Of a stretch of 64,000 bases of DNA, positions 22,549 to 63,868 are shown piece after piece. The position numbers were made by a program, and so were the translations under genes. The notes below the pieces were generated by a model. It searched no databases. It was not told the DNA's origin and worked only from the letters and a program-made list of their open reading frames with translations. Numbering within the stretch: the stretch's first letter is position 1; every line of letters begins with the position of its first letter. Source of the stretch: Lewinella sp. LCG006 (lineage in GTDB: Bacteria; Bacteroidota; Bacteroidia; Chitinophagales; Saprospiraceae); contig NZ_CP160680.1 of the NCBI RefSeq assembly GCF_040784935.1, forward strand, positions 4,434,501 through 4,498,500, read 5' to 3'.

Positions 22549-23664
22549 ATGATGCCTGACCTAAAAACCATCTGGCTCGATCCTCAAGATTCCTCTACTG
22601 TTTGGATTATTGACCAAAGGGCCTTGCCCCATGACTTGGTACATGAACCGCTGAAGACGACTGCGCAGGCGGCTGCGGCAATCAAAGAAATGCACGTGCG
22701 CGGAGCCCCGCTGATCGGCGCTACGGCGGCCTGGGGCTTGTACCTGGCGATGCTGGAATACCAGGGCGCCGTTGATTTTGACAACTATCTGGATCAGGTC
22801 ATTGACCAATTGCAAAACACCCGCCCCACAGCGGTCGATCTGTTCAATGCTTTGGAAGCTTCTAAGTTGCGTATCCGCGCAGCTGCTCCTCATGATCGCG
22901 TAAGCGTTGCAAGGCAAGCTGCCGAGGATTTTGCTATCGCAAGCGCAGCCCAGTGCCGGGCCATCGGAGAGCATGGTCTGGAAATTTTGCAAGATATTGC
23001 CGCCACCAAGCCCGGTGAAACCATCAATATCCTCACCCATTGCAATGCTGGAAAGCTAGCTTGTATTGACTATGGCACTGCCACGGCACCCATTTATTTG
23101 GCTCACGAAAAAGGCCTGCCGGTACACGTTTGGGTAGATGAAACTCGCCCCCGCAACCAAGGCGCTCGCCTGACGGCGTATGAATTGGCCGCAGCTGGCA
23201 TCCCTCACACCGTGATAGTCGACAACCTGGGAGGGCACCTCATGCAGCACGGCATGGTCGATGTGGTTTTCGTTGGCACCGACCGTACGACCCGCGAGGG
23301 CGATGTGGCCAATAAAATAGGCACTTACCTCAAAGCGCTGGCCGCCCACGACAATGGCGTCCCCTTCTACGTCGGTCTCCCCACCAGCACCATCGACTGG
23401 ACCATCCGCGACGGCCTCCGTGAAATCCCCATAGAGGAACGCGGCGGCGACGAAGTCACCCACATTCAGGGCAAGCTCAATGATAAAAGCCAATGGGTAC
23501 AACTTACCCCGGATGCCAGCCCTGGCCTCAATTACGGCTTCGATGTAACGCCCGCTCGGCTGGTGACTGGCCTGATTACTGAAAGAGGGATTTGTGCGGC
23601 GAGTGAAGAGGGGTTGTTGGGTTTGTTTCCGGAAGGGGGGAGCGCATTACAACATAAAGATTAG
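22549..23664 (+). CDS. mtnA: S-methyl-5-thioribose-1-phosphate isomerase
   Basis: 371 aa. Converts 5-methylthioribose-1-phosphate to 5-methylthioribulose-1-phosphate in methionine salvage. The conserved RGAPLIG loop (MHVRGAPLIGATAAWG), the catalytic-Cys region LTHCNAGKLACIDYGTA and the catalytic-Asp region 'VGTDRTTREGDVANKIGTY' are present. Methylthioadenosine is the by-product of spermidine synthase, and speE lies 13 kb away, so this enzyme probably recycles that by-product. ATG at 22549 or 22552. A weak promoter may lie in the 33-bp gap after trkH, or the gene may be read through from trkH. Confidence 0.95.
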   Translation: MMPDLKTIWLDPQDSSTVWIIDQRALPHDLVHEPLKTTAQAAAAIKEMHVRGAPLIGATAAWGLYLAMLEYQGAVDFDNYLDQVIDQLQNTRPTAVDLFNALEASKLRIRAAAPHDRVSVARQAAEDFAIASAAQCRAIGEHGLEILQDIAATKPGETINILTHCNAGKLACIDYGTATAPIYLAHEKGLPVHVWVDETRPRNQGARLTAYELAAAGIPHTVIVDNLGGHLMQHGMVDVVFVGTDRTTREGDVANKIGTYLKALAAHDNGVPFYVGLPTSTIDWTIRDGLREIPIEERGGDEVTHIQGKLNDKSQWVQLTPDASPGLNYGFDVTPARLVTGLITERGICAASEEGLLGLFPEGGSALQHKD

Positions 23665-23693
23665 TTAACCAGTTAATTGGTTTTTATGTTTGG

Positions 23694-23826
23694 GGTCGTA
23701 GCAGCGCTGAGCGTGCTACCCGGTGATCCATTCTTAGTACCTGCTTCGCGTCACTACCACTGCGCCCGATTTTTAATCGGGATTCTTGCACCCTTCGGGC
23801 ATCGGGCTGCGGGCGCTGGCCTGCGC
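23694..23826. repeat. GC-rich intergenic repeat (copy 3)
   Basis: Non-coding and GC-rich, with an internal hairpin CCCGATTTTTAATCGGG (23765-23781). The stretch from CACTACCACTGCGCCCGA onward resembles 39803-39860 (CACTACCGCTGCACTCCCGA) with the same order of blocks: CTTAGT, CACTACC, CCCGA, TCGG and CTTGC. Confidence 0.55.
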
Positions 23827-23892
23827 TAATGACAAAAAAGTAGTAAACTAAGAAAGACCTCATTAAAAAGAATAACCGAAATTTCACAGAAA

Positions 23893-24276
23893 ATGCCAGT
23901 TAATAAACTCCCAACAGTACCCTTTTTGATACTATCATTAAGCATAATCCTGTGTACATCTGCACAATCACAACACTATTATTCTTTCTATAGCCCATTT
24001 GATAGTACGGGGGGGGTTAAGGAAAAGGTAGTTGTTCCTTTTGGATATACGAATTACCAAGTCTTTAGATGCTCAGACTTGCTCCCCTACTTTTCCTACC
24101 CCACCAAGGAATATTTCCCCCTACAAAAACGTTACCTCAGCGTTTGTATACCCGTCACAAGGCAATACGGAAGATTCGTAACGGGAATAACTACTACCAA
24201 TCCAGATAAGGCCCAAAATAAACCTACTTTAAACTTCGAACAGCAATGCGAACAAACTCTTGTTTTTTCTATCTGA
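23893..24276 (+). CDS. Small secreted protein, unknown function
   Basis: 127 aa with a clear signal peptide (MPVNKLPTVPFLILSLSIIL, cleavage near SAQS-QHYY). The mature part (about 100 aa) is rich in Tyr, Phe and Pro and contains three cysteines; I do not recognise it. Its last 31 bp overlap the start of the next gene in a different frame, which suggests translational coupling with the repeat protein. No sorting tail is seen, so it is probably periplasmic or secreted via Sec. Confidence 0.55.
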   Translation: MPVNKLPTVPFLILSLSIILCTSAQSQHYYSFYSPFDSTGGVKEKVVVPFGYTNYQVFRCSDLLPYFSYPTKEYFPLQKRYLSVCIPVTRQYGRFVTGITTTNPDKAQNKPTLNFEQQCEQTLVFSI

Positions 24277-25778
24277 TTATCAGTTTTTTATTTGTTTCTG
24301 CCTCTGCTTTTGCTCAAGGAGGCAACTTTGACGAAACGTGGAAGGAATTCTTGGACAATGACAAGATTTCCAATATGAGTGAATTGATTAAGCCTAATAT
24401 GGCCTATGAAAAGCCGAAATATGCTAAATACCTGTTGATGAATACCAACTCTTGCCTGTGTCAAAGTCAGGTAGAGGATGCCGAAAGGTTGATGACGGAA
24501 GTCCAAGGGCTAGATCCTGCTGTGCTAAGGTCGATCCCCGGGTATGTATTGAAAATGGATGAATTGGACGCAAAAATCAAAGCATACTATAGCGTTGACG
24601 AAATTTGGAAAGCGTTTTTACGCACCAAAGAAGTCAACTTACAAGAGCTGGATGCCATCAAGGAAACAAAAACCATCTGCGAAAAAAAGACGCTGGCGAA
24701 GTATTCCTACATGACCGCCTACGCACAGTTTTGCCGTGGCGATGTTGCAGGTTCCAAGGATATTTTCGAAAATCGTACGCTCCGATTAACAGAAAAAACC
24801 ACCTTGCGGGTAGAAGACGTCTATGGTTTGGCAGAGGAAGTGGCAAGGATGAAAGCGTTTTATCAAGACGTGTCTAAATTGGATGTTGCCTGGAAAACTT
24901 ATATGGACACCGGTGTTTCTCCCGGGTTTGATACGGAATTGGCACTATTTCCCTGTAATCCTACCCCTAACATGAAGGCATTTGTCTTGAGAGGAGCCCT
25001 GGATATTTGTAACGCAGCTCCGTTGATGCTCGATAAAGTCAGTCAATTGCAAGCCGAAACGGGCGTTGCACCCAATGGGGAATTGCGGGGTAAGATCAAA
25101 GAACTGGAAGGAGCCATCGCACAAAAAGAAGGTGATGTTGCTGCCTTGAACATAGCCTGGGAAGCCTTCATTCCCGATAATAAGGTCAAACACATGGGTC
25201 AGTATGGTTATGAATATTGTGAAAAAGAACCACTGATTCGGGCTTACATCATGGATGGTTTCGCCTACCTCTGTGAACTGGGAGAGGAAATGCTCCAAAA
25301 AATTGATGACCTCCAACGAGCCGATCGTACACCACTGGCAGAAATTACGATGATTAAAATCAATGAACTTGCGGCCTTGAGCGATGAATACCAAGCCAAT
25401 GGTGGTAAAATTGATATGATCTGGCGCAGGTTTGTTGCCCAGGGAGATATCCTTAAAGAAAATTATCAATCGGCCGACTTTTACTGTGATAACATCCATC
25501 AGGTAAAAGACTGGACGATGAAAGGGCTTACCGGCACTTGTGAAGAAGCAACCCAGTACCTCGATCAAATTGAATCGTTTCAACGTACCTTCGAGTTCAA
25601 TTTCTTGCCTGATCTGGAGTGTCGGGTTCAGCGATTGCGTATTAAGGTGTGGACATGCCGCCACGACGCCTTGCTGAAGCTCGCTAAAATAGAGGCACCA
25701 GATGCTTATGAAGCCAGACTAGAGGCATTGATGCAGGAATACGGCGTCGGAGCACGACCAGAGGATTGCTCTTTGTAG
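24246..25778 (+). CDS. Secreted protein with five Cys-x17-Cys tandem repeats, unknown function
   Basis: 510 aa with a signal peptide (MRTNSCFFYLIISFLFVSAS, cleavage near AFA-QGG). The mature chain is five degenerate repeats of about 90 aa. Each begins with a Trp-centred helix (FDETWKEFL, VDEIWKAFL, LDVAWKTYM, LNIAWEAFI, IDMIWRRFV) and is followed by a Cys pair with fixed spacing. Repeats 2-5 have C-x17-C (CEKKT, CNPTP, CEKEP and CDNIH starts); repeat 1 has Tyr at the first position with the same spacing. A final Cys-rich segment (LECRVQRLRIKVWTC) follows. An all-helical, disulfide-stapled solenoid is a reasonable guess. No known family recognised. Confidence 0.8.
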   Translation: MRTNSCFFYLIISFLFVSASAFAQGGNFDETWKEFLDNDKISNMSELIKPNMAYEKPKYAKYLLMNTNSCLCQSQVEDAERLMTEVQGLDPAVLRSIPGYVLKMDELDAKIKAYYSVDEIWKAFLRTKEVNLQELDAIKETKTICEKKTLAKYSYMTAYAQFCRGDVAGSKDIFENRTLRLTEKTTLRVEDVYGLAEEVARMKAFYQDVSKLDVAWKTYMDTGVSPGFDTELALFPCNPTPNMKAFVLRGALDICNAAPLMLDKVSQLQAETGVAPNGELRGKIKELEGAIAQKEGDVAALNIAWEAFIPDNKVKHMGQYGYEYCEKEPLIRAYIMDGFAYLCELGEEMLQKIDDLQRADRTPLAEITMIKINELAALSDEYQANGGKIDMIWRRFVAQGDILKENYQSADFYCDNIHQVKDWTMKGLTGTCEEATQYLDQIESFQRTFEFNFLPDLECRVQRLRIKVWTCRHDALLKLAKIEAPDAYEARLEALMQEYGVGARPEDCSL

Positions 25779-25954: not shown

Positions 25955-27580
25955 ATGAAAGGAAGAATGATAAAAAAGCCACTACTTTTTCTTGTTTGTT
26001 TCCTGACCGTAGTGATTTGTTCTGGAAATCGGGATACTCTAATCAATGTCCTGGAGCAAAATATCCAACGACGTCCATTAGCCTTGAAGGCAAAATACCA
26101 AAGGATAAATACTTTACGGAAGCATCTCGCTCGTGCTGAAACCCAGAAAGATTCTTTTCAGTTGCTCTTAAATCTTACTCATGAATACCGATCCTTTAAT
26201 TATGATACTGCCTCCATTGAAATCCAAAGATTAAAAAAAGTGGCGGCTACACCGGTAGAGAATAATCAAGCGGAGATTCAAGAAGCTTTTATTCTGTTAT
26301 CCTCTGGCTTGTTTCGAGAGTCTATCGATAAACTAAAAGGGTTGACGATGGAGGAGATGCCTGATACTGTACGGTGCAGGTATTATTTTAATTTGGCAAG
26401 GAGTTATTTTGACTTGACGGATGCTTACACAAATTATCTGAACACAGAGGAGCCATTCAATGCTGGCATGGCATTTCTTGATTCGGCCATCTACTACACT
26501 GAAAACAATACGGTGGAGCAACTTTCTTTCCTTGGGTTGAAGGCACTAAAGCGTAAAGAATTAGAGAAAAGCAAAAAGATTTACCAACAGCTTATCCAGC
26601 ATCCAGAAATTACAACCCGGCAATTGGCAATTGAATATTCCGCCCTGAGCTCATTGTATCAAGGTGCAGATCAAGATACTGTTTTGCATTTTATGATCAA
26701 GGCTGCTATTGCCGATGAGCAGGCTCTGGTAAAAGAAAGCACCGCCCTGACCTTCTTGGCGAATTATTTTTCCGAGGCTAAAAATTTTGAACGTGCTAGC
26801 CGCTATATCAATCTCGCTTTGTCGGATGCTAATTTTTTTGGTGCGCAACATCGCAAAATGCAAATTCTGAATATCCTCCCCTTGATTGAAAAACAGCGTT
26901 TGGAATTGGAACAATCAAAATATCAGCAATTTGTCTTTTTCTCCGCAACATTAGCGATGCTACTTTTCCTTTCGGTTTTGCTTTTCTTTAGGACGCTATT
27001 TCAGAAAAAACACATCAAAAGCCAACACCAGCAAATAATAGAACGCGAGGCGGCCATACAAAAAGCTTATCAAGCTCTAGCTACTTATGCCCAAAAACTG
27101 AGCGAATCTAATCAGCTGAAAGAAAAATACATTGGTCACTTTTTTCAAGCCAATACCAATTTAGTCAATAAGGTAAAATCGCTTTTCAGCAAATCATCAA
27201 AAGAAATGGCGGAGGGGAAATTCAAAGAGGCGATTTTCACTATCAAGCAATTCAATGCAGATCATGAAGAGAAAAAGTTGCTCCAGGATTTTGATTCGAC
27301 TTTCCTGACGGTCTTTCCCACTTTTATTGAACAGATGAATCAGTTTTTTCCTCCAGCGGAACAATTTGAAATACCAGCACAGAAAGTACTTTCGATTGAG
27401 CTAAGGATTTTTGCGCTTATTCGACTGGGGGTCTCCAATAATGACATCATTGCCAAAGTCCACAACTACTCTGTCAATACCATTTATACTTATAAAACCA
27501 AGGTCCGCAACCGGTCATTTCTTTCTAGTGATGATTTTGATAAAGCAGTACTTGAAGTCAAATCTATTTGGAATAACTAG
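25955..27580 (+). CDS. Membrane-anchored TPR/HTH regulator (DUF6377-like)
   Basis: 541 aa: signal peptide or N-terminal anchor, helical TPR-like sensor region (about residues 40-310), one transmembrane helix (FVFFSATLAMLLFLSVLLFF, about 328-347), a cytoplasmic coiled-coil, and a C-terminal HTH-like segment. In that segment, 'LSIELRIFALIRLGVSNNDI' and 'SVNTIYTYKTKVRNRS' are close to the LuxR-like C-terminus of DUF6377 proteins. Such proteins are thought to sense the periplasm and regulate neighbouring carbohydrate genes. Here the GH13 gene starts 245 bp downstream, so it is the likely target. Family assignment is from memory of the motif. Confidence 0.8.
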   Translation: MKGRMIKKPLLFLVCFLTVVICSGNRDTLINVLEQNIQRRPLALKAKYQRINTLRKHLARAETQKDSFQLLLNLTHEYRSFNYDTASIEIQRLKKVAATPVENNQAEIQEAFILLSSGLFRESIDKLKGLTMEEMPDTVRCRYYFNLARSYFDLTDAYTNYLNTEEPFNAGMAFLDSAIYYTENNTVEQLSFLGLKALKRKELEKSKKIYQQLIQHPEITTRQLAIEYSALSSLYQGADQDTVLHFMIKAAIADEQALVKESTALTFLANYFSEAKNFERASRYINLALSDANFFGAQHRKMQILNILPLIEKQRLELEQSKYQQFVFFSATLAMLLFLSVLLFFRTLFQKKHIKSQHQQIIEREAAIQKAYQALATYAQKLSESNQLKEKYIGHFFQANTNLVNKVKSLFSKSSKEMAEGKFKEAIFTIKQFNADHEEKKLLQDFDSTFLTVFPTFIEQMNQFFPPAEQFEIPAQKVLSIELRIFALIRLGVSNNDIIAKVHNYSVNTIYTYKTKVRNRSFLSSDDFDKAVLEVKSIWNN

Positions 27581-30409: not shown

Positions 30410-32803
30410 CTATTCTCCCGCTGCCTCCGCAAAGGATTTCGCCATTTTTTCGTCGGCAGCTTTGGCCGTTGCGTCAACCTGGGCTTGCGCCCGCGTTTCA
30501 TAATAATTAGCGATGGCGGTCAGTATGCCTGCATCAGCACCCGACTTGAGTTTTGCAACGGTTGCTGCGTCTTTCAAGAAGATGCTTTCCAACTTAAAGC
30601 GTAGTACGTCTTCTCCCGAAAAGAGATTGCTGTACTGATCGGTCGCAATACTTTTGCGAAGTTCAGAAGGGGGGAGAATCACCTTGCCGGGAGCACCCGG
30701 AAGATAGAAGCCATTCCCTTCGGTAGACCATACCAGCATTTTCTGTGAACCATCCGTAATAGGCATTAAGGCAATCAACTGTTGCTTACCAGCATCCCAA
30801 ATTCCCATATTTCCATCGGCTCCCTGAGAGATGAGGTACTGCTGGTCAGGCGACCACTCCAAACTGATAATTTGGGCATCGTGTCCTTGCAAAAGACCAT
30901 TTGATTTGCCAGAAAGACTGATGTAGGCTCCATTGACTTTGGCTTTGATACCATTGGAATTGGTTACTTCTAGCCCAGAGGTGTTGTAGGCGACCTCCAG
31001 ACCGTTTTCGGGGGTCCATTGCATGAGGGCACCGTCTCTACTTTGTACTTGTAGTTGCTGGTCGCCTATCCACTTCAAGGAGCCAGGTAGAGTCGGTTCG
31101 CCACTGGTGAACAACAATTGGTTGTTATTAGCATCCCACAGGTAAAGAAATTCTTCTGAACTTTGGGCAGCAAGGTACCTTTGGTTGGGAGACCATCGCA
31201 CAGTCAAAAGATAAGAACCAATATTGTCGGTAGCACCAAGTTCATCTCCAGTAGTAGTATCCCAAAAACGTAAGAGACCATCGTCTCCCGCTGAAGCTAG
31301 GATTTTGCTATCGGGTGAAAAATCAACGTCACGCACCCAATCAGAGTGTCCGCTGAGAAAATGTTGCATTTCGCCCGTACGTGCATCCCAGATGCCTACC
31401 ATCTGATCATCAGATGCTGTAGCCAGTAAATTACCATCTGCAGACCAGGCGATGTTGCGAATCCAATCGCTGTGCTCACTGATGACGTAGGCGGTTTTAC
31501 CCTCGATCATATCCACTACGTTCAGACTATAATTCGCATCAATCACCCCTAGGTAATCACCGTTGGGCGAAGGGAATAGCTGGAAAGAAGCAGGCAACAG
31601 TTCAGCAAGGAGGGCCTCCAGCGGGTTGCTACTGCTTTCGCTGGTCTGGCTGGTGCCACCATCGGCCAACAAACGAGCAATAGGCGCAGAAGTGCCGATC
31701 TCATAAATAGCCAACTCATAAGATCCTATGGCGATAAAGCGATCCCCTTTGGGAGCAAATTCCACATCCATCCAGGAGGTTTCTGGTTCAACAGAGTTGA
31801 AAAACATTTGATCGCCGCTGCGTACGGTATGCAGGATGATAGTACCACTGTTGTCTGCCGAAGCTAGCATTTTTCCATTAGGCGACCAATCGACACCCAT
31901 CACCCAGTTTTCGTGACCTTTAAAGTTTCGGTCAGGAATACTGCTGGTCGCAGGGTCGTACAGGTAAATGTTTAAATCATCTGAACAACTTGCAAGTGCA
32001 TTGCCTGAAGGCGCAAATGCTACATCACGGCAGTAATCTTCATGGGAACGGTGGGTGGTGATCAGGTTACCTTCCGTCACTGACCATACGGTAACCGTGG
32101 TATCATCGCTAGCAGCAGCCACCATTTTACCGTCAGCGGACCAAGATATATTCCTGATCCAATCCGTATGAGAAGTGAAACTTCTTTCTTGGGCAGAGGT
32201 ACTTACATTGTAAACAAAGAGGATATTTTCATCACCGCCAGCAGCGAGTTTGGTGCCGTCGGGTGACCAGGCAACCGCCCGGATGTAATCACCATGTTCC
32301 CATTGTTTGGTGACCTGTTTAGTGCTGAGGTTAAAAATACCTAAACTACCTTCCGTCGTACCGAAGGCCAGGTTTTTGCTGTCAGGTGACCAGCTGATGG
32401 CCAGTACGCCACCACCAATGACGAGGGGGAATTCCTCGAATTTTTCTGGTGAACTGACTTCGTACAATCTAATGGTACCGCCTGCCATCGCCGCAGCTAT
32501 TTGATTGCCGTTGGGCGACCACTCCGCGTCGTTGAAGGTGTTTTCGGTGTACTCACCTTCGTAAAGGTCATAATCCGAAGTAGAATAATAAGTTTCGTAA
32601 AGCAGGCGCTGAAGGTCTGGGTTATCAGCACCAAGGAAATCATAGCCTAAAAGCGCTAATCCCAGCGCTTTAGAACGTCCGTCATTTTCTGCAGCTTTCT
32701 TTACTTGGGCTTTGAGTTGTTCTATTTGTAAAGCTAAAGGTTGTGTATAAGCCTGAACAAAAAAGAGGCTTAAACTAAGTACTAACAAGGTTTTTTTCAA
32801 CAT
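30410..32803 (-). CDS. Secreted WD40-repeat protein
   Basis: 797 aa with a signal peptide (MLKKTLLVLSLSLFFVQAYT-Q). After a short helical lead (residues 20-75) come many WD40 repeats of the 'SWSPDGKxLASAxxDGTIxxW' form. They fall into two blocks, about residues 85-375 and 425-690, separated by a Ser/Leu-rich linker, so two beta-propellers are likely. The last 100 residues are helical and Ala-rich (KAADEKMAKSFAEAAGE). WD40 propellers are protein-interaction scaffolds; no catalytic site is visible. Periplasmic or surface location is inferred from the signal peptide. Confidence 0.88.
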   Translation of the reverse strand: MLKKTLLVLSLSLFFVQAYTQPLALQIEQLKAQVKKAAENDGRSKALGLALLGYDFLGADNPDLQRLLYETYYSTSDYDLYEGEYTENTFNDAEWSPNGNQIAAAMAGGTIRLYEVSSPEKFEEFPLVIGGGVLAISWSPDSKNLAFGTTEGSLGIFNLSTKQVTKQWEHGDYIRAVAWSPDGTKLAAGGDENILFVYNVSTSAQERSFTSHTDWIRNISWSADGKMVAAASDDTTVTVWSVTEGNLITTHRSHEDYCRDVAFAPSGNALASCSDDLNIYLYDPATSSIPDRNFKGHENWVMGVDWSPNGKMLASADNSGTIILHTVRSGDQMFFNSVEPETSWMDVEFAPKGDRFIAIGSYELAIYEIGTSAPIARLLADGGTSQTSESSSNPLEALLAELLPASFQLFPSPNGDYLGVIDANYSLNVVDMIEGKTAYVISEHSDWIRNIAWSADGNLLATASDDQMVGIWDARTGEMQHFLSGHSDWVRDVDFSPDSKILASAGDDGLLRFWDTTTGDELGATDNIGSYLLTVRWSPNQRYLAAQSSEEFLYLWDANNNQLLFTSGEPTLPGSLKWIGDQQLQVQSRDGALMQWTPENGLEVAYNTSGLEVTNSNGIKAKVNGAYISLSGKSNGLLQGHDAQIISLEWSPDQQYLISQGADGNMGIWDAGKQQLIALMPITDGSQKMLVWSTEGNGFYLPGAPGKVILPPSELRKSIATDQYSNLFSGEDVLRFKLESIFLKDAATVAKLKSGADAGILTAIANYYETRAQAQVDATAKAADEKMAKSFAEAAGE

Positions 32804-43082: not shown

Positions 43083-45065
43083 TTATTGATCAGAAAGTAG
43101 CGTAATCTTAATATCAACCCTTCGGTTAAAGGCGCGCGTACGATCATTGACGATAGTTCCTTTGCCTTCAATATGGATATCGTCTACTTCGATGCCTCTG
43201 CTTAGTAAGAACACTGCTACCTTTTTAGCACGTTGTTCCGAAAGGGCTAAATTGTAGGACTGCGTACCAATATCATCGGAATAGCCTACGATCTCAACGG
43301 TCTTTACCTCTTTGGCCTTCAGGTTTTCCACCAAAGCCTCTAAACTTTCTACTTCGCCCTGACTCAGTTCATCGCTATCGAAGCCAAAAAGGATATGATG
43401 TTCAAGGGTAATGTTTTTAGGGATACTTCTAGGCGTAGCGTCTTGCAGTTGCGATGCTGCTTCTATTTCCGCAAGAAAGCTAAACTTGGGTTGTAACAAT
43501 AAATTGAGATTGAAAAATGAACGATTCTCCCATTGAGGAATGAAGAACTGATTATGGTACGGACGGTATTCGTCTGCCGTAATTTGAAGATCTAAGGTTT
43601 CTTCGGCACCAGCACAGAGGAAAAAGCGGCCTTCCGCATCGGTCGTCAAGGGGCTTTTTCTGCCATTGATATTTACTGTGGCTTGTATGGGCGTATGGAG
43701 AACGGAGTCTTTGACGATGCCTTCAAGAAAGGTGATGGGTTCGCCGTACAATTGCTCCGAAAGTTCAAAACGGTAAATATCCATCCCGCCCATTCCTCCA
43801 GGACGATTACTGGCAAAGAAGCCCGTCTTGCCACTTGCGGATAAATAGAAACCCAGTTCCCGATGAGGGCCATTGACGGGCGGCCCAAGGTTGATAGGGA
43901 CGCTCCATCGTTTTTGCCTTTCGTCCCACCAGCTCATGAAAATATCTTGCTCTCCCATACCAAGGTGGCCCGTACTGGAAAAATAGAGGGTTTTTCCATC
44001 GTTGGAGATAAATGGCGCTTCCTCGTCACCGGGCGTGTTGAGTGGTAGCCCCAAATTTACCGGCAAACTCCAGTTGCCATTAGGGAGCTTTTCGGTCATA
44101 TATATATCAGTACCTCCCACTCCACCAGGGCGATTGCTGGCAAAGAAGAGTTGGCTCCCGTCACAACTCACAGCTGCTTGCGATTCCCAGTAGACAGAAT
44201 TTATAGGTGCTCCCAAAGGTGTGATCTCCTGGATTTCTGCACCATCAATCAGCGCTTCCCAAATATCACAAGGTCCAGCTACGCTATCCCGTTTACAGGC
44301 TGTGAAAAAGAGTTGTCGACCATTGCGCACCAGCGTACTCATCCCTTCGGGTTGCTCGGTGTTGAAGTCTTTGATACGCTCTCCATTGCGCCAGGTGCCG
44401 TTTCGCATTTGACTGTAGTAAAGATCTTCGTCTCCATTGGCACGCTGCCGCGTATAGTAGAGTTGCTGCTGATCATTGGAAAGAAAAGGGAAGTAGTCAT
44501 CGAAACTACTATTGATGTCCTTGCCGAGATTTTGAATTTCGGTGATATTGATGAATTTCACCGAGTCAATGCTCATTTGGCATGCCCGGATGTTGTTGTT
44601 TAGTCGATCACTGATAACCAGTTCATCCGCCAGCTCTTCAACGCCATGCAGCCCAAATTTTTCAATGGGTTGCTCTTGTAAAACCTGGAAAGTTTTAAAA
44701 TAGCGCAAGGCAATCTCTGGCTCCCCCATTTTGTAGTAGGTATCCCCCAACTCGAAATAGATCATCCTTGAGAACAAGCTATCGGATTTAAGAACCTGAA
44801 TATACTCGTTTGCAGCTTCGGGGTATTGGCCAAGCAGTACATGACACTGACCAATCATTCTGTGAGCCACCGTCAGCGTTTCCTGTTCGCGCAATGCTTT
44901 CCTGAAATGGCGAATGGCGGTAGCGTAATCTTTGCCAAGTAAAGCTGATTGTCCATCCTGGAAATGGGCTGCGGCCATACTGCCAGAAGAAGGGGTGTAT
45001 ACCTGGCTAAAGAGTAGAAGAGGACAAGAAAAAAGAGGGAATAGAAGAAAAATGAAATAGTTCAT
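43083..45065 (-). CDS. PorE-like OmpA/TPR/PD40 protein
   Basis: About 660 aa from MNYFIFLLFPLFSCPLLLFS. Signal peptide, then TPR repeats (about residues 35-130), a PD40-type beta-propeller (about 180-450: 'DDYFPFLSNDQQQLYYTRQR', 'AAVSCDGSQLFFASNRPGGV'), a carboxypeptidase-regulatory-like domain (about 460-540), and a C-terminal OmpA peptidoglycan-binding domain ('ILFGFDSDELSQGEVESLEA', 'VGYSDDIGTQSYNLALSEQR'). This is the architecture described for the type IX protein PorE, but several paralogues with this layout occur per genome, so an actual secretion role is only possible. Confidence 0.88.
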   Translation of the reverse strand: MNYFIFLLFPLFSCPLLLFSQVYTPSSGSMAAAHFQDGQSALLGKDYATAIRHFRKALREQETLTVAHRMIGQCHVLLGQYPEAANEYIQVLKSDSLFSRMIYFELGDTYYKMGEPEIALRYFKTFQVLQEQPIEKFGLHGVEELADELVISDRLNNNIRACQMSIDSVKFINITEIQNLGKDINSSFDDYFPFLSNDQQQLYYTRQRANGDEDLYYSQMRNGTWRNGERIKDFNTEQPEGMSTLVRNGRQLFFTACKRDSVAGPCDIWEALIDGAEIQEITPLGAPINSVYWESQAAVSCDGSQLFFASNRPGGVGGTDIYMTEKLPNGNWSLPVNLGLPLNTPGDEEAPFISNDGKTLYFSSTGHLGMGEQDIFMSWWDERQKRWSVPINLGPPVNGPHRELGFYLSASGKTGFFASNRPGGMGGMDIYRFELSEQLYGEPITFLEGIVKDSVLHTPIQATVNINGRKSPLTTDAEGRFFLCAGAEETLDLQITADEYRPYHNQFFIPQWENRSFFNLNLLLQPKFSFLAEIEAASQLQDATPRSIPKNITLEHHILFGFDSDELSQGEVESLEALVENLKAKEVKTVEIVGYSDDIGTQSYNLALSEQRAKKVAVFLLSRGIEVDDIHIEGKGTIVNDRTRAFNRRVDIKITLLSDQ

Positions 45066-45324
45066 GGGGTTTTTTGGATTGCGAAAGGTAAAAATAAGGA
45101 TTCTAGGCTTTCGGCGCACGAATGAATTAGGGAACGGTAATTCCCAATTATATTTTTTTTATTAATCTGGGAGAGGAATTTCTTTTGGATCAACACCCTT
45201 TCCTAAGGCGTAAGTTTGCTTTAGTTAATCTATATTGATTTTTGATTCGAAATTATGATCAAGTTAGGTTAAAAAAGTATCGTTTTTTATCAAGATACTG
45301 GTAGAAATGCAACTCTTCTGTCAG

Positions 45325-57749: not shown

Positions 57750-58727
57750 ATGAACCCGATGAAGTACATTCTCTCTATCTTTTTCTTTGTTACCACCTTG
57801 CTTGGGCTACAGGCGCAGCAGCCGGCTCAATACAGTACTTACATGTTGGATCCGATGCGAATTAACCCTGCGTATGCGGGTTTGGATTATGCCTTGAGTC
57901 TGACGGGGACTTATCGTCAGCAATGGGCTGGGCTGGAAGGAGCACCAACGGGGCAGCGCCTAAGTGCACACCTGCCATTGTACTTTTTGCGGGGTGGTTT
58001 TGGCTTGCAGGTAGAGAATGATGAGATTGGTGCGCACCGCTTGAGTAGCGCACAAGTGGCTTACAATTACCAAATGGAATTGGGTAGTGGCGTGCTTTCA
58101 TTGGGGGTTGGTGGCGGCTGGCAACAGCTGACCTTGCGTGGTGGTGAGCTGATAACACCTGATGGCAACTACGGAGAGCCAGGAAATACTTCGCACAATG
58201 ATGATTTGCTGAGTTTGGCGACCCAATCAGGATCAACGATACAATTATCTACAGGTATTTATTTTCAGAGTGAGCGTTTGGAAATAGGCTTATCGGCCGA
58301 AAACATTAATGCGGGGAGCGTACAGCTAGATCAACTCAACTATGGCTTAGTACGCACTTATAACGCTTTTGCGATGAGCCGCTTTGAGGTAGGAAGGAGT
58401 TTGGAATTGCGTCCGTCGCTTTGGTTCAGAACGGATGCGATTGAAAGCCAGTTGGATATTTCTCTATCTGCGGTCTACAACAGCAATATTTTTGGAGGCG
58501 TATCGTTAAGAGGATACAGCAGCAGCACGCAAGATGCCGTTGTAGTAATGGGAGGCTTTCAATTGTCTCCTTCTTTGCAACTGGTTTACGCGTATGATGT
58601 TGGGCTTTCCCCTTTACAAACGGTGCATAGTGGATCCCACGAGGTGGTCATTAAGTACCGCATAAATAAAACTTTTGGCGAAGGGAAACCACCACGGATT
58701 ATTTATCATCCGCGGGCCAAAGGTTAA
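57750..58727 (+). CDS. porP: PorP/SprF-family type IX secretion system membrane protein
   Basis: 325 aa. Signal peptide (cleavage near LQA-QQPAQ), then the hallmark PorP/SprF start 'QYSTYMLDPMRINPAYAGLD' with 'SLTGTYRQQWAGLEGAPTGQ', which continues into an outer-membrane beta-barrel. It ends 'SGSHEVVIKYRINKTFGEGK'. Family members anchor or help secrete type IX cargo adhesins and, in Porphyromonas gingivalis, PorP is encoded directly before porKLMN. The same order is present here. ATG 57750 or 57759. Confidence 0.93.
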   Translation: MNPMKYILSIFFFVTTLLGLQAQQPAQYSTYMLDPMRINPAYAGLDYALSLTGTYRQQWAGLEGAPTGQRLSAHLPLYFLRGGFGLQVENDEIGAHRLSSAQVAYNYQMELGSGVLSLGVGGGWQQLTLRGGELITPDGNYGEPGNTSHNDDLLSLATQSGSTIQLSTGIYFQSERLEIGLSAENINAGSVQLDQLNYGLVRTYNAFAMSRFEVGRSLELRPSLWFRTDAIESQLDISLSAVYNSNIFGGVSLRGYSSSTQDAVVVMGGFQLSPSLQLVYAYDVGLSPLQTVHSGSHEVVIKYRINKTFGEGKPPRIIYHPRAKG

Positions 58728-58880
58728 GAAATGCTGGCTAAGTATTTCTTGTTACTGCCGTAATGCAGTAATAATGTTTCATTCTACTCAATAAATTAAT
58801 TTCTACTCGTACTAAATGTCAGGCAGCTGGCGTTATGCATGGGTTGATGTGTTAAACTCTGCCATGGCAGCGTAAATTCT

Positions 58881-58911
58881 TTTGATAAATAAGCCAAACG
58901 GTCTATATTTA
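58881..58911 (+). promoter_or_regulatory. gldK promoter
   Basis: TTTG (58881-58884), 19 bp, TATATTTA (58904-58911) followed by CG. Spacing is ideal and the -7 has one mismatch. gldK ATG at 58966. Confidence 0.45.
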
Positions 58912-58950
58912 CGTTCGCTTTTGAAAATCGGTTAAAAAAATCTGAAGGAA

Positions 58951-58960
58951 AACTCGGGTA
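58951..58960 (+). promoter_or_regulatory. Shared leader motif before gldK (variant)
   Basis: AACTCGGGTA, 5 bp before the ATG; a variant of the AACTCGGTAAAA motif before gldL and gldN. Confidence 0.35.
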
Positions 58961-58965
58961 TAAAC

Positions 58966-60207
58966 ATGAAGAACTTATCCAAAGTCGCACTACTTCTCCT
59001 AGTGCTAGTCCTGGTGTCTTGTGGGCGCCGCGAAAACGGAGAAATCACTGGCGTGTTGGAGCGCCCCTCCTGGAAAGGAATTAATCCATTTGGTATGGTG
59101 TATGTACCCTCTGGTACTTTACACATCGGTCCTAGCGATCAGGATGTAGCCAACACCTATGTGCAGCGCCAAAAGGCGATTTCTATTTCTGGTTTCTATA
59201 TGGATGAAACAGAAATCACTAACAATGAGTATCGCCAGTTTGTTTACTGGGTACGTGACTCTTTGGCACACGCTTACCTTGACCACTACATCACGGATGA
59301 TGATGGTAATGAAAGCATCGATTGGGAATACGATATCGACTGGGAAGATGAAATCCTGGAAGACTTGTACTACCAAGGTGATGATCGCTTTGCTGGCCGT
59401 CGTGAGATTGACGTGAGCAAATTTGTTTACGAATACCAGTGGTACGATTGGCAAGAAGCTGCTCGTGACCGTGGACAATCTCCTCGTAACGCATTTATTA
59501 AGAGCAAGAAGGTAAATGTTTACCCTGATACCTTGGTATGGGTACGTGATTTCTCTTATTCTTACAATGAGCCAATGGCTCGTAATTACTTCTGGCACCC
59601 TGCTTATGATGATTATCCAGTAGTAGGTGTAGATTGGCACATGGCTAACGCCTTTGCTTACTACCGTACGCTGCTTTGGAATAACTACCAGCAGACCCGT
59701 GGTGATGGTGTTAATACGGAAGACTTCCGTCTGCCAACCGAACACGAATGGGAATATGCTGCTCGTGGTGGCCGCGAAAATGCACCATATCCTTGGGGTG
59801 GTCCTTATATACGCAATGCCAAAGGTTGTTTGTTAGCTAACTTTAAGCCTGGCCGTGGTAACTACCCAGAAGATGGTGGTCAATACACTGTAAAAGCAGA
59901 TGCTTACTACCCTAATGATTACGGTCTGTACAATATGGCAGGTAACGTAGCGGAGTGGACAAGTTCTGCTTACTACGATAATGCTTACTCTTTCCAGCAC
60001 GATCTAAACCCTGATATCCGCTACGACGCGAAGGATGATGATCCAGAATCTTGGAAGCGTAAAGTTATCCGTGGTGGATCATGGAAAGATATTTCTTACT
60101 TCCTCCAGACGGGTACGCGTCACTGGGAATACCAGGATACGACCAAGAGCTACGTTGGTTTCCGTAACGCCCTAACCTTCTTGGGTCGTTCACTCAACGA
60201 TTTTTAA
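58966..60207 (+). CDS. gldK: Type IX secretion/gliding lipoprotein GldK (PorK)
   Basis: 413 aa with lipobox LVLVSC (Cys19). The rest is a formylglycine-generating-enzyme/SUMF1-like fold (about 45-405): 'MVYVPSGTLHIGPSDQDVAN', 'GFYMDETEITNNEYRQFVYW', 'RLPTEHEWEYAARGG', 'YNMAGNVAEWTSSAY' and 'VIRGGSWKDISYFLQTG'. GldK forms, with GldN, the periplasmic ring attached to the outer membrane. Codons such as CGT and GGT dominate, as in highly expressed genes. A strong terminator lies immediately downstream, before gldL. Confidence 0.96.
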   Translation: MKNLSKVALLLLVLVLVSCGRRENGEITGVLERPSWKGINPFGMVYVPSGTLHIGPSDQDVANTYVQRQKAISISGFYMDETEITNNEYRQFVYWVRDSLAHAYLDHYITDDDGNESIDWEYDIDWEDEILEDLYYQGDDRFAGRREIDVSKFVYEYQWYDWQEAARDRGQSPRNAFIKSKKVNVYPDTLVWVRDFSYSYNEPMARNYFWHPAYDDYPVVGVDWHMANAFAYYRTLLWNNYQQTRGDGVNTEDFRLPTEHEWEYAARGGRENAPYPWGGPYIRNAKGCLLANFKPGRGNYPEDGGQYTVKADAYYPNDYGLYNMAGNVAEWTSSAYYDNAYSFQHDLNPDIRYDAKDDDPESWKRKVIRGGSWKDISYFLQTGTRHWEYQDTTKSYVGFRNALTFLGRSLNDF

Positions 60208-60223
60208 GACTAGATTTTCATAG

Positions 60224-60270
60224 GCGAAAAAGGATACTACTTACTCAAGTGGTATCCTTTTTCGCTTTTT
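60224..60270 (+). terminator. Strong terminator between gldK and gldL
   Basis: 14-bp perfect stem GCGAAAAAGGATAC (60224-60237)/60252-60265, 14-nt loop, then TTTTT. Confidence 0.85.
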
Positions 60271-60482
60271 ATTTCTGTTTTTATTTCACTTAACTTATTG
60301 ATGGACAGGTTTTTTGATGAAAAAAAAGTAATAAAGGGAGAAAAAACTAAAAAAAAGTGTTCCCCGATCTGTTACTTTTTAAGTCACCTGCATTATACAG
60401 TTGTGTGAAAGCTTTTCAACGCTTAGTCCTCGCCTTTAAAAGAAAGGAGAGGCCACTCAAAAGAGAGACAATCAAATTAACT

Positions 60483-60494
60483 AACTCGGTAAAA
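60483..60494 (+). promoter_or_regulatory. Shared leader motif before gldL
   Basis: AACTCGGTAAAA, ending 11 bp before the gldL ATG; the same 12 bases precede gldN at 62977-62988. Could be a ribosome-loading or RNA-processing element. Confidence 0.45.
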
Positions 60495-60505
60495 TTGTTA
60501 CGAGA

Positions 60506-61114
60506 ATGAGTTTCTTAAAAACAAAAGGTTTTAAGTACGTAAAGAATCTGATTATTGGTGTAGGTGCAGCCTTCGTACTTGCAGGAGCACTTTTCAAAAT
60601 CGAAAGCTGGCCTTTCGCTTCTGAGATGTTGATCCTTGGTATGGGTATTGAGGCATTCATCTTTGCTTTCCTTGGTATTATCGGACCAGAACCCGATTAC
60701 TACTGGGACAAGCTTTACCCAGGGCTTTCTGATTACAACACCCCAATTCAGCCTTTGACTGCTGGTGGTGTTGCAATTGACAACACTCCTGCCTTGAACG
60801 GCGAAGTTGTAGAGCAGCAATTGGGTGGTATGTTGACGGAACTTCAGGGTATGTCACGTAGCTTGGGTAGCCTCAAGGCACTCCAGGAAGCTGATTTCTC
60901 TGGTGTATCTGATCAGGTGAAGTCTATGACTAACTTCTACGGTAAACTGAACGAAGCGATGGCTGACCTTGCTGACTCTGTAGAAGATACCAAGCAGTAC
61001 AAAGCACAATTGACAGAACTGAATAAGAACATTGCTTCTTTGAACAATTCTTATGCTTCTTTAGGCAACGTATATGGCAACATCATTGGTGCTATGTCTA
61101 ACGTAGGTAAATAA
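60506..61114 (+). CDS. gldL: Type IX secretion motor protein GldL (PorL)
   Basis: 202 aa. Two N-terminal transmembrane helices (about 13-30 and 37-56: LIIGVGAAFVLAGALF and MLILGMGIEAFIFAFLGIIG) and a cytoplasmic helical tail (about 90-200). GldL and GldM form the 5:2 inner-membrane motor that uses proton motive force; a conserved Glu in the second helix is key for this, and E49 here (GMGIE) falls at that position. The gene is preceded by a terminator and the AACTCGGTAAAA motif. Confidence 0.96.
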   Translation: MSFLKTKGFKYVKNLIIGVGAAFVLAGALFKIESWPFASEMLILGMGIEAFIFAFLGIIGPEPDYYWDKLYPGLSDYNTPIQPLTAGGVAIDNTPALNGEVVEQQLGGMLTELQGMSRSLGSLKALQEADFSGVSDQVKSMTNFYGKLNEAMADLADSVEDTKQYKAQLTELNKNIASLNNSYASLGNVYGNIIGAMSNVGK

Positions 61115-61161
61115 TTTACCTGCCCTGAATTAATTGTTGAACTAAAAAAGAAGCAAAATAT

Positions 61162-62787
61162 ATGTCTATTCCAAAGGAACCGCGGCAGTTGATGATTAAC
61201 ATCATGTACTTGGTGTTAACCGCGCTGCTCGCCCTGAACGTATCGGCGGAAGTAATGAATGCCTTCTTTGCTCTGGATGACGGAAACAAAGAAAGTATTG
61301 CTACAGTCGATAGTCAGCTTGAAACGACCATTTCGGGCGTTAAAGAATTATTGAAAGATGCATCTAAGAAGAAGTATCAGCCGATTGAGCCTGCTATTGA
61401 TGCAGTACGTGCCAAGGTTGCAGAATTCAATAAATACGTGGACGATCTTCGCAACGAACTCATTGATATTGCGGGTAACGCAAACGGTGAAGTAGATGAA
61501 GAAGATTATACCGAATCTTACGGCAAACGTGTACCAAAGGGTAAGAAAAACAAAGATGTTACTACCCGTATCTTGGTGGACGAAGGCCGTGGAGAAGAAT
61601 TGAAAGCAAAAATTTTGGAAACACGTCAAGAATTGATTGATGTGTACACCAAATTGATGCAAGAAAATGGTGACTCTTTCAGCTTGAAGCCAGAACAGGT
61701 GGAACGTCGTATTCAGAGTGTCGCTAATGATATGCCTTTCAATATTGACGACGAAACCTGGAAAGCTCCAGGTAGCGACAAGAAAAGCTGGTCGGATTTC
61801 AAATTTCGTCAGATGCCTTTAGCTGCAGTTCTCCCATTGCTATCTCAAATGCAGTCTAACCTGAAGAGTTCAGAAGCTGCGATGATCAATGACATGGCAG
61901 AGTTGACGGGTGGTCGTACGATTGAATTCGATGCCTTCTTCCCAGTGGTAGCAGCTGATCGCTCTTACGTGGTTGGTGGAGAAAAAATCTCTGCTAAAAT
62001 TTCAGTAGGTACTTACAGTACTTCTCTACAACCGGAAAACGTGAAGATCTACGCAGGTGGTACATTACTGCCAGTAGGTCAAGGAGGTATCGCAGAGTAC
62101 TCGATCACGGGTAGCGGTGCTGGTCAAAAGACCATTCCTCTTCGCGTAGAAGTGGTTAACCCACTGACAGGTGAGATATCAAAAGGAGAAAGCGAGTTTG
62201 TCTACGAAGTAGGTTCACGCTCCGTAGCCGTAGCGGCAACCAAGATGAACGTATTCTACATTGGTGTTGATAACCCGATCACGATCTCTGCTTCTGGTGT
62301 GAGCTCAAACGATGTACGGGTAAGTGTTTCTGGCCCAATTACGATCAGTGGTAGCGGTAGCAACCGTACGATCAATGCGAGTGCTCCTGGTGCCGCAAAG
62401 GTTAGCGTATCTGCCAATGGTACCAGCTTGGGTAGCTTCGACTTCCGTGTCAAGCGTATCCCTAACCCGGAAGCACGCCTTTCTGGTAAGAACGGTGGTG
62501 GTATGGGATCTGGTGAATTCAAAGCACAAGGTGGTGTAGGTGCCTTCCTTGATGATTTTGACTTCGATGCGGTATGTCAGGTAGCTGGATTCGAACTGGT
62601 ATACGTACCAAAGCGTCAGGATGCTATTCCTGTGCAAAACCCGGGAGCTCGCTATACCGATGCTGCTCGTCGGGTAGTCAACCAGGCTAAGCCAGGTGAT
62701 ATCTACTACTTTGAGAATGTACGGGCCAAGTGTCCGGGCGATACTGCAACACGTAAGATCAACAGTATGGTCTTCACGATTCAGTAA
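61162..62787 (+). CDS. gldM: Type IX secretion motor protein GldM (PorM)
   Basis: 541 aa. The N-terminal cytoplasmic SIPKEPRQLMINIMYLVLTA leads into one membrane helix; the rest is periplasmic (about 40-541), built of successive beta domains (D1-D4) after a long helical part. 'KEPRQLMINIMYLVLTALLALNV' is split by the membrane boundary and is highly conserved in PorM/GldM. It partners GldL in the motor and reaches toward the GldKN ring. 47 bp separate it from gldL; the two are surely co-transcribed. Confidence 0.96.
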   Translation: MSIPKEPRQLMINIMYLVLTALLALNVSAEVMNAFFALDDGNKESIATVDSQLETTISGVKELLKDASKKKYQPIEPAIDAVRAKVAEFNKYVDDLRNELIDIAGNANGEVDEEDYTESYGKRVPKGKKNKDVTTRILVDEGRGEELKAKILETRQELIDVYTKLMQENGDSFSLKPEQVERRIQSVANDMPFNIDDETWKAPGSDKKSWSDFKFRQMPLAAVLPLLSQMQSNLKSSEAAMINDMAELTGGRTIEFDAFFPVVAADRSYVVGGEKISAKISVGTYSTSLQPENVKIYAGGTLLPVGQGGIAEYSITGSGAGQKTIPLRVEVVNPLTGEISKGESEFVYEVGSRSVAVAATKMNVFYIGVDNPITISASGVSSNDVRVSVSGPITISGSGSNRTINASAPGAAKVSVSANGTSLGSFDFRVKRIPNPEARLSGKNGGGMGSGEFKAQGGVGAFLDDFDFDAVCQVAGFELVYVPKRQDAIPVQNPGARYTDAARRVVNQAKPGDIYYFENVRAKCPGDTATRKINSMVFTIQ

Positions 62788-62797
62788 TATTTGCACC

Positions 62798-62920
62798 TTG
62801 AGGGGGAGATTTGTTAAAAGTTTCCCCCTCAACTATGTTAAAGGCAATAGCGGGTTTGGTTAATCCGTTAAATAAGCGCAATTTAGCGATCCGACAGAAG
62901 TGAGTACCATTCCTGTCGGA
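62798..62920 (+). other. Two hairpins between gldM and gldN
   Basis: TTGAGGGGGA (62798-62807) pairs with TCCCCCTCAA (62823-62832), and TCCGACAG (62890-62897) pairs with CTGTCGGA (62913-62920). The second is followed by a weak T-tract (CTGTTTTAAAA). They may partially end or protect the transcript in the 211-bp gap before gldN. Confidence 0.55.
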
Positions 62921-62976
62921 AATCTGTTTTAAAAAAGGAAGGGTTAGGTTCCTTCCACAAGTGTATAAATACAATC

Positions 62977-62988
62977 AACTCGGTAAAA
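62977..62988 (+). promoter_or_regulatory. Shared leader motif before gldN
   Basis: AACTCGGTAAAA, ending 11 bp before the gldN ATG, identical to the motif before gldL. Confidence 0.45.
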
Positions 62989-62998
62989 ATTTACTTCC

Positions 62999-63868
62999 AT
63001 GAAGATCGCTCTGAAGCTCCTGGGCTTAATGCTGTTTTTCTGTGTCGGCCAGCTGGTGGCACAAGTGCCGGATAACGTAATTATGACGGAATCTGGCAAT
63101 AGTCAGGTCGTTGAGCAAGACCCGCCAACGGATGACATCACTGATAAGCGTACCATCGAGACGGTACGTATTCTTCCTTACGATCCAGTTCGTGAAGCGG
63201 ATATTTTTTGGGAAAAGCGTATCTGGCGGGTAATTGATATCCGCGAAAAGATGAACCTTCCTTTTGCTTATCCAGAACGTCCTTTCTTTTCTATCTTGCA
63301 GGAAGCTGCTGAAAACGAAGAAATCAACGTTTATAGCAATGAAGACGATAAGTTTACCCACCGGTTAAGCCCTGAGGAGATTGCCTCAATGGGAGCATCG
63401 GTAGATACGGTAACTACTTTTGACCCGGTTACGTACGAAGAAAAAATTCAAATCGTTCGCAACGAACTAAACCCCGAAGATATCAAGCGTTACCGCTTGA
63501 AAGAGGTATGGTTCTTTGACGAAGAAACGTCTCGTATGCAAGTTCGTATTCTCGGTATCGCACCTTTATTGGATGTGAAGGACGAGAATGGCAACTTCAA
63601 GTATGAGCAGGTGATGTTCTGGGTATACTACCCTGAGGCTCGCCAGATTTTAGCTCGTGAGAAAGTATTCACCACCGGCAACGACGCTGCCCCGATTACG
63701 TGGGAGTCGCTGATGGAAATGCGTTTCTTCTCCAGCTATATCTATAAAGAATCTAACGTTCACAATCGTCGTCTACAGGATTACGTTCAAGGCGTAGACC
63801 TTCTTCTGGAAGCTGATAAGATCAAGCAAACGATCTTCAACTTCGAGCACGATCTTTGGGAATACTAA
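62999..63868 (+). CDS. gldN: Type IX secretion/gliding protein GldN (PorN)
   Basis: 289 aa with a signal peptide (LMLFFCVGQLVA-QVPDN). The mature part carries the GldN/PorN core: 'DIFWEKRIWRVIDIREKMNL', 'PYAYPE'-like FAYPERPFFSILQEAAEN, 'YRLKEVWFFDEETSRMQVRI' and the C-terminal 'FFSSYIYKESNVHNRRLQDY'. It binds GldK in the periplasmic ring under the outer membrane. It is the last gene of the cluster; a perfect terminator follows. Confidence 0.96.
   Translation: MKIALKLLGLMLFFCVGQLVAQVPDNVIMTESGNSQVVEQDPPTDDITDKRTIETVRILPYDPVREADIFWEKRIWRVIDIREKMNLPFAYPERPFFSILQEAAENEEINVYSNEDDKFTHRLSPEEIASMGASVDTVTTFDPVTYEEKIQIVRNELNPEDIKRYRLKEVWFFDEETSRMQVRILGIAPLLDVKDENGNFKYEQVMFWVYYPEARQILAREKVFTTGNDAAPITWESLMEMRFFSSYIYKESNVHNRRLQDYVQGVDLLLEADKIKQTIFNFEHDLWEY

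Follow-up and report, generated by a model that had tools for sequence, protein, structure and literature searches.

The N-terminal domain of LpoA, TPR-like and periplasmic, is among the closest known systems to the protein described here; LpoA is an activator of a peptidoglycan synthase. HcpB and HcpC of Helicobacter and Csep1P of Campylobacter are helical solenoids (Sel1-like) in which each hairpin has an internal disulfide, formed in Csep1P by cysteines that are nine apart (PMC12904459, in the part of the article available). PorE (PG1058) is a periplasmic lipoprotein of the type IX secretion system (T9SS) with the domain order TPR-WD40-CRD-OmpA, and the side chains of its Asp576, Asn584 and Arg591 bind a peptidoglycan fragment (PMC7192894, likewise from the available part). 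The gene analysed here lies at 24246-25778 of a 64,000-nucleotide stretch of the Lewinella sp. LCG006 genome ('the window'), a complete genome of one contig and 7.5 Mb, and encodes a secreted protein of five repeats. Like HcpB, HcpC and Csep1P it is a bacterial helical solenoid (here a predicted fold) with regularly placed cysteines. Unlike them, it has its cysteines 18 apart across one helix, the inferred bridge joins neighbouring repeats, and Pfam gives no Sel1 family at E 1 for the window protein or at E 0.01 for 17 aligned members of its family. Like PorE, its long relatives combine helical repeats with a C-terminal OmpA-like domain that has the same three ligand residues. Unlike PorE, the family shows no matched propeller or CRD and no lipobox, has a Cys pattern of its own, and carries a long insert in the OmpA-like domain, which the window protein lacks; a Pfam search with the window protein found none of PorE's TPR, WD40, CRD or OmpA domains. 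We file the protein under neither PorE nor the Hcp-type solenoids, despite the resemblance. We read it as a Sec-exported, probably periplasmic helical repeat scaffold that was formerly anchored to the wall and in which a daisy chain of disulfides most likely links each repeat to the next, and we give this reading a probability of roughly 0.57.

In named records the open reading frame (ORF) has 14 orthologues of nearly full length, 53-85% identical to it, and their alignment agrees with its start codon. The nearest, from Lewinella cohaerens DSM 23179, is 85% identical, and the comparison with it indicates purifying selection (non-synonymous divergence dN 0.09 versus synonymous divergence dS 2.7, the latter saturated). 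Judged by eye, the N-terminus has a hydrophobic core and an AFA|QGG boundary without a lipobox, which supports the claim of an earlier, sequence-only reading of this DNA that the protein is secreted. Q24 and N27, just after the signal peptide, are invariant in the orthologue alignment. The gene and protein are laid out as follows.

24246..25778, + strand: gene for the five-repeat secreted protein, 510 aa
24246..24314, + strand: signal peptide, residues 1-23, AFA/QGG boundary, placed by eye
24315..24575, + strand: repeat 1, residues 24-110, with W32, Tyr54 in the place of the first Cys, and C72
24576..24860, + strand: repeat 2, residues 111-205, with W121, C145 and C163; helices 147-163, 167-183 and 195-222
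24861..25127, + strand: repeat 3, residues 206-294, with W216, C237 and C255; helices 240-252, 258-272 and 278-308
25128..25391, + strand: repeat 4, residues 295-382, with W305, C325 and C343; helices 327-340, 342-359 and 366-398
25392..25667, + strand: repeat 5, residues 383-474, with W393, C414 and C432; the final long helix, 455-483, holds C459 and C471
25701..25769, + strand: C-terminal tail, residues 486-508, including C508; from the alignment and an OmpA-like profile match (E 0.275, weak alone), likely a remnant beyond a lost domain

The sequence-only reading had described five repeats of about 90 residues, each with a W-[KER]-x-[FY] motif; this description is confirmed, and the repeats are in register. 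Trp stands at 32, 121, 216, 305 and 393, followed each time by [KER]-x-[FY] (5/5). The C-x17-C spacing is exact in repeats 2-5 (145/163, 237/255, 325/343 and 414/432; 4/4 pairs), and in repeat 1 Tyr54, 18 residues before Cys72, replaces the first Cys. When 14 cysteines were placed at random, at least four pairs with one common spacing arose in 259 of 20,000 trials. The protein has 13 cysteines after its first 22 residues, the highest number among 20 window ORFs chosen by a crude signal rule, with 7 in the next. From a 15-sequence alignment, the segments of the five repeats were compared profile to profile, with 30 column-shuffled controls. Four of the ten pairs (1-2, 3-4, 3-5 and 4-5) exceed 90% probability and eight exceed the best control (1.3%); pairs 1-3 (1.1%) and 1-5 (0.5%) do not. 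These comparisons support a common origin of the five repeats at the level of sequence profiles.

AlphaFold2 predicts an all-helical protein with a repeated fold (mean pLDDT 84.9, pTM 0.62), as the sequence-only reading had anticipated. In the model each unit of about 90 residues would consist of a helical hairpin (helices A and B) and a long helix that is continuous with the Trp helix of the following unit. Helix A spans residues 147-163, 240-252, 327-340 and 416-429; the first Cys of each pair precedes it by 2-3 residues and the second lies at its end or at most three residues beyond.

A divergent TPR-superfamily protein whose cysteines are incidental stabilizers would also be all-helical, and TPR-like chains do occur among the structural matches, but at a Z that is common. 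Searched with the model, Foldseek returned no PDB match at E 0.001, although a family missing from the matches listed is still possible, and sequence searches of the PDB gave nothing credible. No TPR family was found at E 0.01 in any of the 17 members and none reached its cut-off; the only TPR profile match of the window protein, TPR_MalT, has E 0.07 and 12.8 bits against a cut-off of 45. We regard such a TPR origin as rather unlikely, though a serious contender. The wider family searches support the earlier claim of a protein of unknown family. No convincing Pfam, NCBIfam or PHROG family covers the window protein, and the 17 members gave scattered low-score Pfam and NCBIfam matches only. All such matches, including those to PHROG, were attributed to chance similarity between helical sequences; among them are arcadin-4 (best E 0.00018, 3 of 17 members) and DUF5713 (in L013, E 0.0016, under its cut-off).

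Within the window's own family, the Saprospiraceae, a 15-sequence profile matches 58 of 398 genomes, in 23 of 112 genera; one of the 58 (G490) contributes a 30-residue match at a contig end. Of 298 genomes of the order, nine have a match, all inside the Saprospiraceae, and the repeat alignment, used as query against 395 genomes of the phylum, gave a full match in the window genome only. The sole other phylum match (39 residues, E 0.003) falls in an ORF of glycoside-hydrolase appearance, judged by eye, and was taken as chance. The window genome holds no paralogue at E 0.01, and one match at E 0.22 falls in an unrelated-looking ORF. No publication title among the matches listed (titles and abstract openings) concerns this family, and we define it here as an unannotated, unnamed family of envelope proteins.

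We gathered 66 distinct homologues, of which 63 are complete (L027, L047 and L114, truncated ORFs, are excluded from the counts) and have 5, 6, 7 or 8 repeats according to a hidden Markov model (HMM) of the repeat. Three architectures occur: in 36 proteins an extra domain, some 200 residues long, separates the last repeat from a short tail; 20 are short, with five repeats, as in the window; and seven consist of 7 or 8 repeats without the domain. Some genomes carry tandem copies. At L058:7498-15989 three genes follow one another, with 6 repeats and the OmpA-like domain, 8 repeats without it and 8 with it; L101, L102, L103 and L104, of the same genus as L058, have three family genes each.

The distribution of cysteines in these 63 proteins carries the argument for a chain. 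If the second Cys of each repeat is paired with the first Cys of the next, 302 consistent pairs result and a single Cys is orphaned; pairing within repeats gives 299 consistent pairs and 67 orphans, of which 63 lie in repeat 1, three in last repeats and one between (a first Cys displaced by one residue was scored as present). In repeat 1 the second Cys is always there, and the position 18 ahead of it is never Cys (64/64), an absence that pairing between repeats explains. A bridge inside each C-x17-C pair would instead make each repeat an independently stapled unit, the pattern known within every hairpin of HcpB, HcpC and Csep1P (PMC12904459, available part), and the spacing of 18 is indeed kept in nearly all later repeats (it is 19 in repeat 5 of L006, L017 and L119). 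Apart from the orphans and the one-sided repeat 1, such a bridge is hard to reconcile with the predicted helix of 13-17 residues between the two cysteines. By textbook geometry a helix of this length spans about 20-25 angstroms, and a bridge across it is therefore not expected. We consider a bridge within the repeat distinctly improbable. The sequence-only reading had taken C-x17-C as the stapling unit; the two cysteines flank one predicted helix instead, and the comparative pattern fits bridges between neighbours.

The tail cysteines follow the same logic. Three are present in the 20 short proteins, and seven (30 proteins) or eight (six proteins) in the 36 that carry the extra domain. Three seven-repeat proteins have no tail Cys and have Asp at the last second-Cys position, which is Cys in all 60 proteins with a tail Cys. 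In four eight-repeat proteins the single tail Cys stands at +39, just as C471 stands 39 residues after C432. The shared set of cysteines is even in each architecture. Together, the comparative pattern and the tail point to bridges C72-C145, C163-C237, C255-C325, C343-C414 and, closing the end of the chain, C432-C471; C459-C508 would follow by elimination. Chained in this way, the repeats would form a stiff, redox-locked rod. Separately, two long repeat-only members (L058:10563-12812 and L010:895-2877) share two additional cysteines, 94 residues from each other (161/255), that may form another bridge from repeat to repeat; of these, L101:3887-5866 has the second only.

Several observations weigh against the disulfide-chained, formerly anchored scaffold. 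The pTM of the model is moderate and residues 401-420 are of low confidence. Repeat 4 of L119, the lone orphan, breaks the rule of pairing between repeats, and the homologues share ancestry, so that the counts reflect few evolutionary events rather than 63 independent ones. Extra cysteines are found: C70 in the window protein, a Cys nine ahead of the second Cys of repeat 1 in 22 of the 63, and an eighth tail Cys at +56, without an obvious partner, in six OmpA-bearing proteins of six repeats (e.g. L058:7498-9990). Counted from repeat 1 on, the total number of cysteines is even in 34 of the 63 and odd in 29, as expected by chance, and the even total was dropped as support for disulfides. The window genome gave no match to VKOR (E 0.001) or DsbB (E 1). 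As set out below, the extra domain of the long relatives is recognized by no Pfam model, including PF00691, at E 10, its profile matches no solved OmpA chain at E 5, and its Asp ligand is Glu in two of 36 carriers (L115 and L116). Across 25 loci, the window included, no gene neighbour points to a partner.

Some of these points favour a different explanation of the same cysteines. Were the pairs to hold a metal or cofactor at the repeat junctions, or to remain thiols, the second Cys of repeat n and the first of repeat n+1 would be expected to co-occur just as they do; the chance-level Cys parity and the lack of a DsbB or VKOR match in the genome also speak for this reading. However, the invariant columns include no conserved His alongside each pair, the protein looks exported, and the genome encodes one DsbA-family protein above the cut-off, itself exported-looking, with the motif CSWC and a signal-like N-terminus. 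We judge disulfide-free cysteines improbable. The chance parity and the extra cysteines nevertheless led us to raise this possibility slightly and to lower the chained scaffold from 0.60 to 0.57.

The extra domain of the long relatives occurs in 36 of the 44 homologues outside the window's clade, and its consensus contains EGHTDG and NMELGIARAW. The window genome itself gave 29 OmpA matches, 19 of which were built into an OmpA profile; hhalign aligns the extra domain with it at 90.5% probability (E 1.3e-6), versus at most 3.7% for 40 column shuffles and 0.4% for the reversed profile. By profile comparison the extra domain is thus a divergent OmpA-like domain, homologous to the OmpA_C-like (PF00691) domain. 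Equivalents of the PorE ligands, D95, N140 and R147 (the Asp, Asn and Arg that contact the diaminopimelate residue), are unchanged in all 15 of the aligned domains, and the Asp is kept in 34 of the 36 carriers. The domain is probably peptidoglycan-binding. It was found in none of the 395 phylum genomes, a set that had no positive control.

The window protein is without this domain: the match is limited to the 23-residue tail beyond it (486-508), which is the sole match of the domain profile in the window genome (E 0.275, weak alone). The alignment shows that the window protein keeps sequence like both flanks of the domain. In a tree of 36 proteins (L027 and L047 left out), 19 short forms make up one clade (support 100/100), and the sister of this clade (100/97) is an OmpA-bearing paralogue of G348, a genome with both forms. 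A second tree, made quickly from 35 rows selected out of 66 and with Shimodaira-Hasegawa-like approximate likelihood ratio (SH-aLRT) support only, groups the short L105 at 98% with the OmpA-bearing L106 of the same genome and forces at least three changes between presence and absence of the domain. The window's clade seems to have lost the OmpA-like domain; we favour loss over gain because the short forms nest among OmpA-bearing ones and share the tail, with a root that is a midpoint only. The ancestor would probably have been held to peptidoglycan through the OmpA-like domain between last repeat and tail, and the window's clade would have dropped the domain and kept its two flanks, leaving a soluble, unanchored version.

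Of the two locations named in the earlier suggestion, surface and periplasm, the periplasm is the likelier: the window protein gave no match to a T9SS sorting tail, and many relatives carry the OmpA-like domain. By analogy with TPR-like solenoids, the repeats presumably bind partner proteins, and the architecture suggests that the protein most likely acts as a scaffold in the periplasm, with partners bound along the repeats. More tentatively, with somewhat less than an even chance of being right, the family could be a new class of solenoid in which each repeat is disulfide-bolted to the next, in which repeats are added or removed (5-8) without breaking the chain, and in which anchored and unanchored paralogues have arisen on more than one occasion through a clean loss of the domain that binds the wall, to serve as a periplasmic scaffold or a strut of set length. 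The family has a connectivity rule that sequence alone reveals, for the terminal repeats lack exactly the Cys that has no neighbour. If confirmed, it would provide a template from nature for helical rods that are rigid, redox-locked and adjustable in length, as well as a way into a probably cell-wall-linked scaffold of Saprospiraceae-type bacteria.

Upstream, a small ORF that the sequence-only reading had paired with the repeat gene turns out to be composite.

23893..24276, + strand: upstream ORF, 127 aa; the 5' part to ~24043 is a truncated mtnA-linked gene of secreted type, the 3' part from ~24126-24197 is leader DNA of the repeat gene in another frame

The overlap between the two ORFs is real (31 bp) and both start with a signal-like sequence, as would be expected if they encoded secreted partners in a surface module. 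The upstream ORF, however, was not found as a unit, or beside the repeat gene, in the other loci examined, nor as a unit in the other three genomes of the genus, and its two parts map to two places in genome G240. Window positions 23500-24043 (the end of mtnA and the start of the small ORF) are 70.6% identical to one site, on contig C11, where mtnA is followed by a secreted-type open frame of 181 residues. Positions 24197-24350 are 82.6% identical to another site, on contig C89, home of the repeat gene, whose sequence there is the same as that of the L. cohaerens record. With its two parts at two G240 sites, the 127-residue ORF is therefore a junction (rearrangement) product. Thus the repeat gene has changed neighbours between the window species and the G240 species (taken as L. 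cohaerens), and the idea of a paired module is scarcely credible.

The wider neighbourhood varies. Among the 25 loci, whole stretches are common to two loci only where both come from the same genome (L017/L066, L018/L063 and L021/L065) or form a close pair (L025/L026 and L060/L067). About ten broad gene families recur in two to four loci, at varying places, one of them in L024, L025, L026 and L061. In the window, a DUF6377 protein (25955-27580, + strand) lies directly 3' of the repeat gene, with no relative near the homologous loci searched. Further along are a 797-residue exported-looking protein with strong WD40 propeller model matches (30410-32803, - strand) and another protein that matches TPR, PD40 propeller and OmpA models in a PorE-like layout (43083-45119, - strand). 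The T9SS core is encoded at 57750-63868 (+ strand), with PorP/SprF, an FGE-sulfatase-domain protein, GldL, GldM and GldN; by its position, we take the FGE-sulfatase-domain protein to be GldK/PorK-like.
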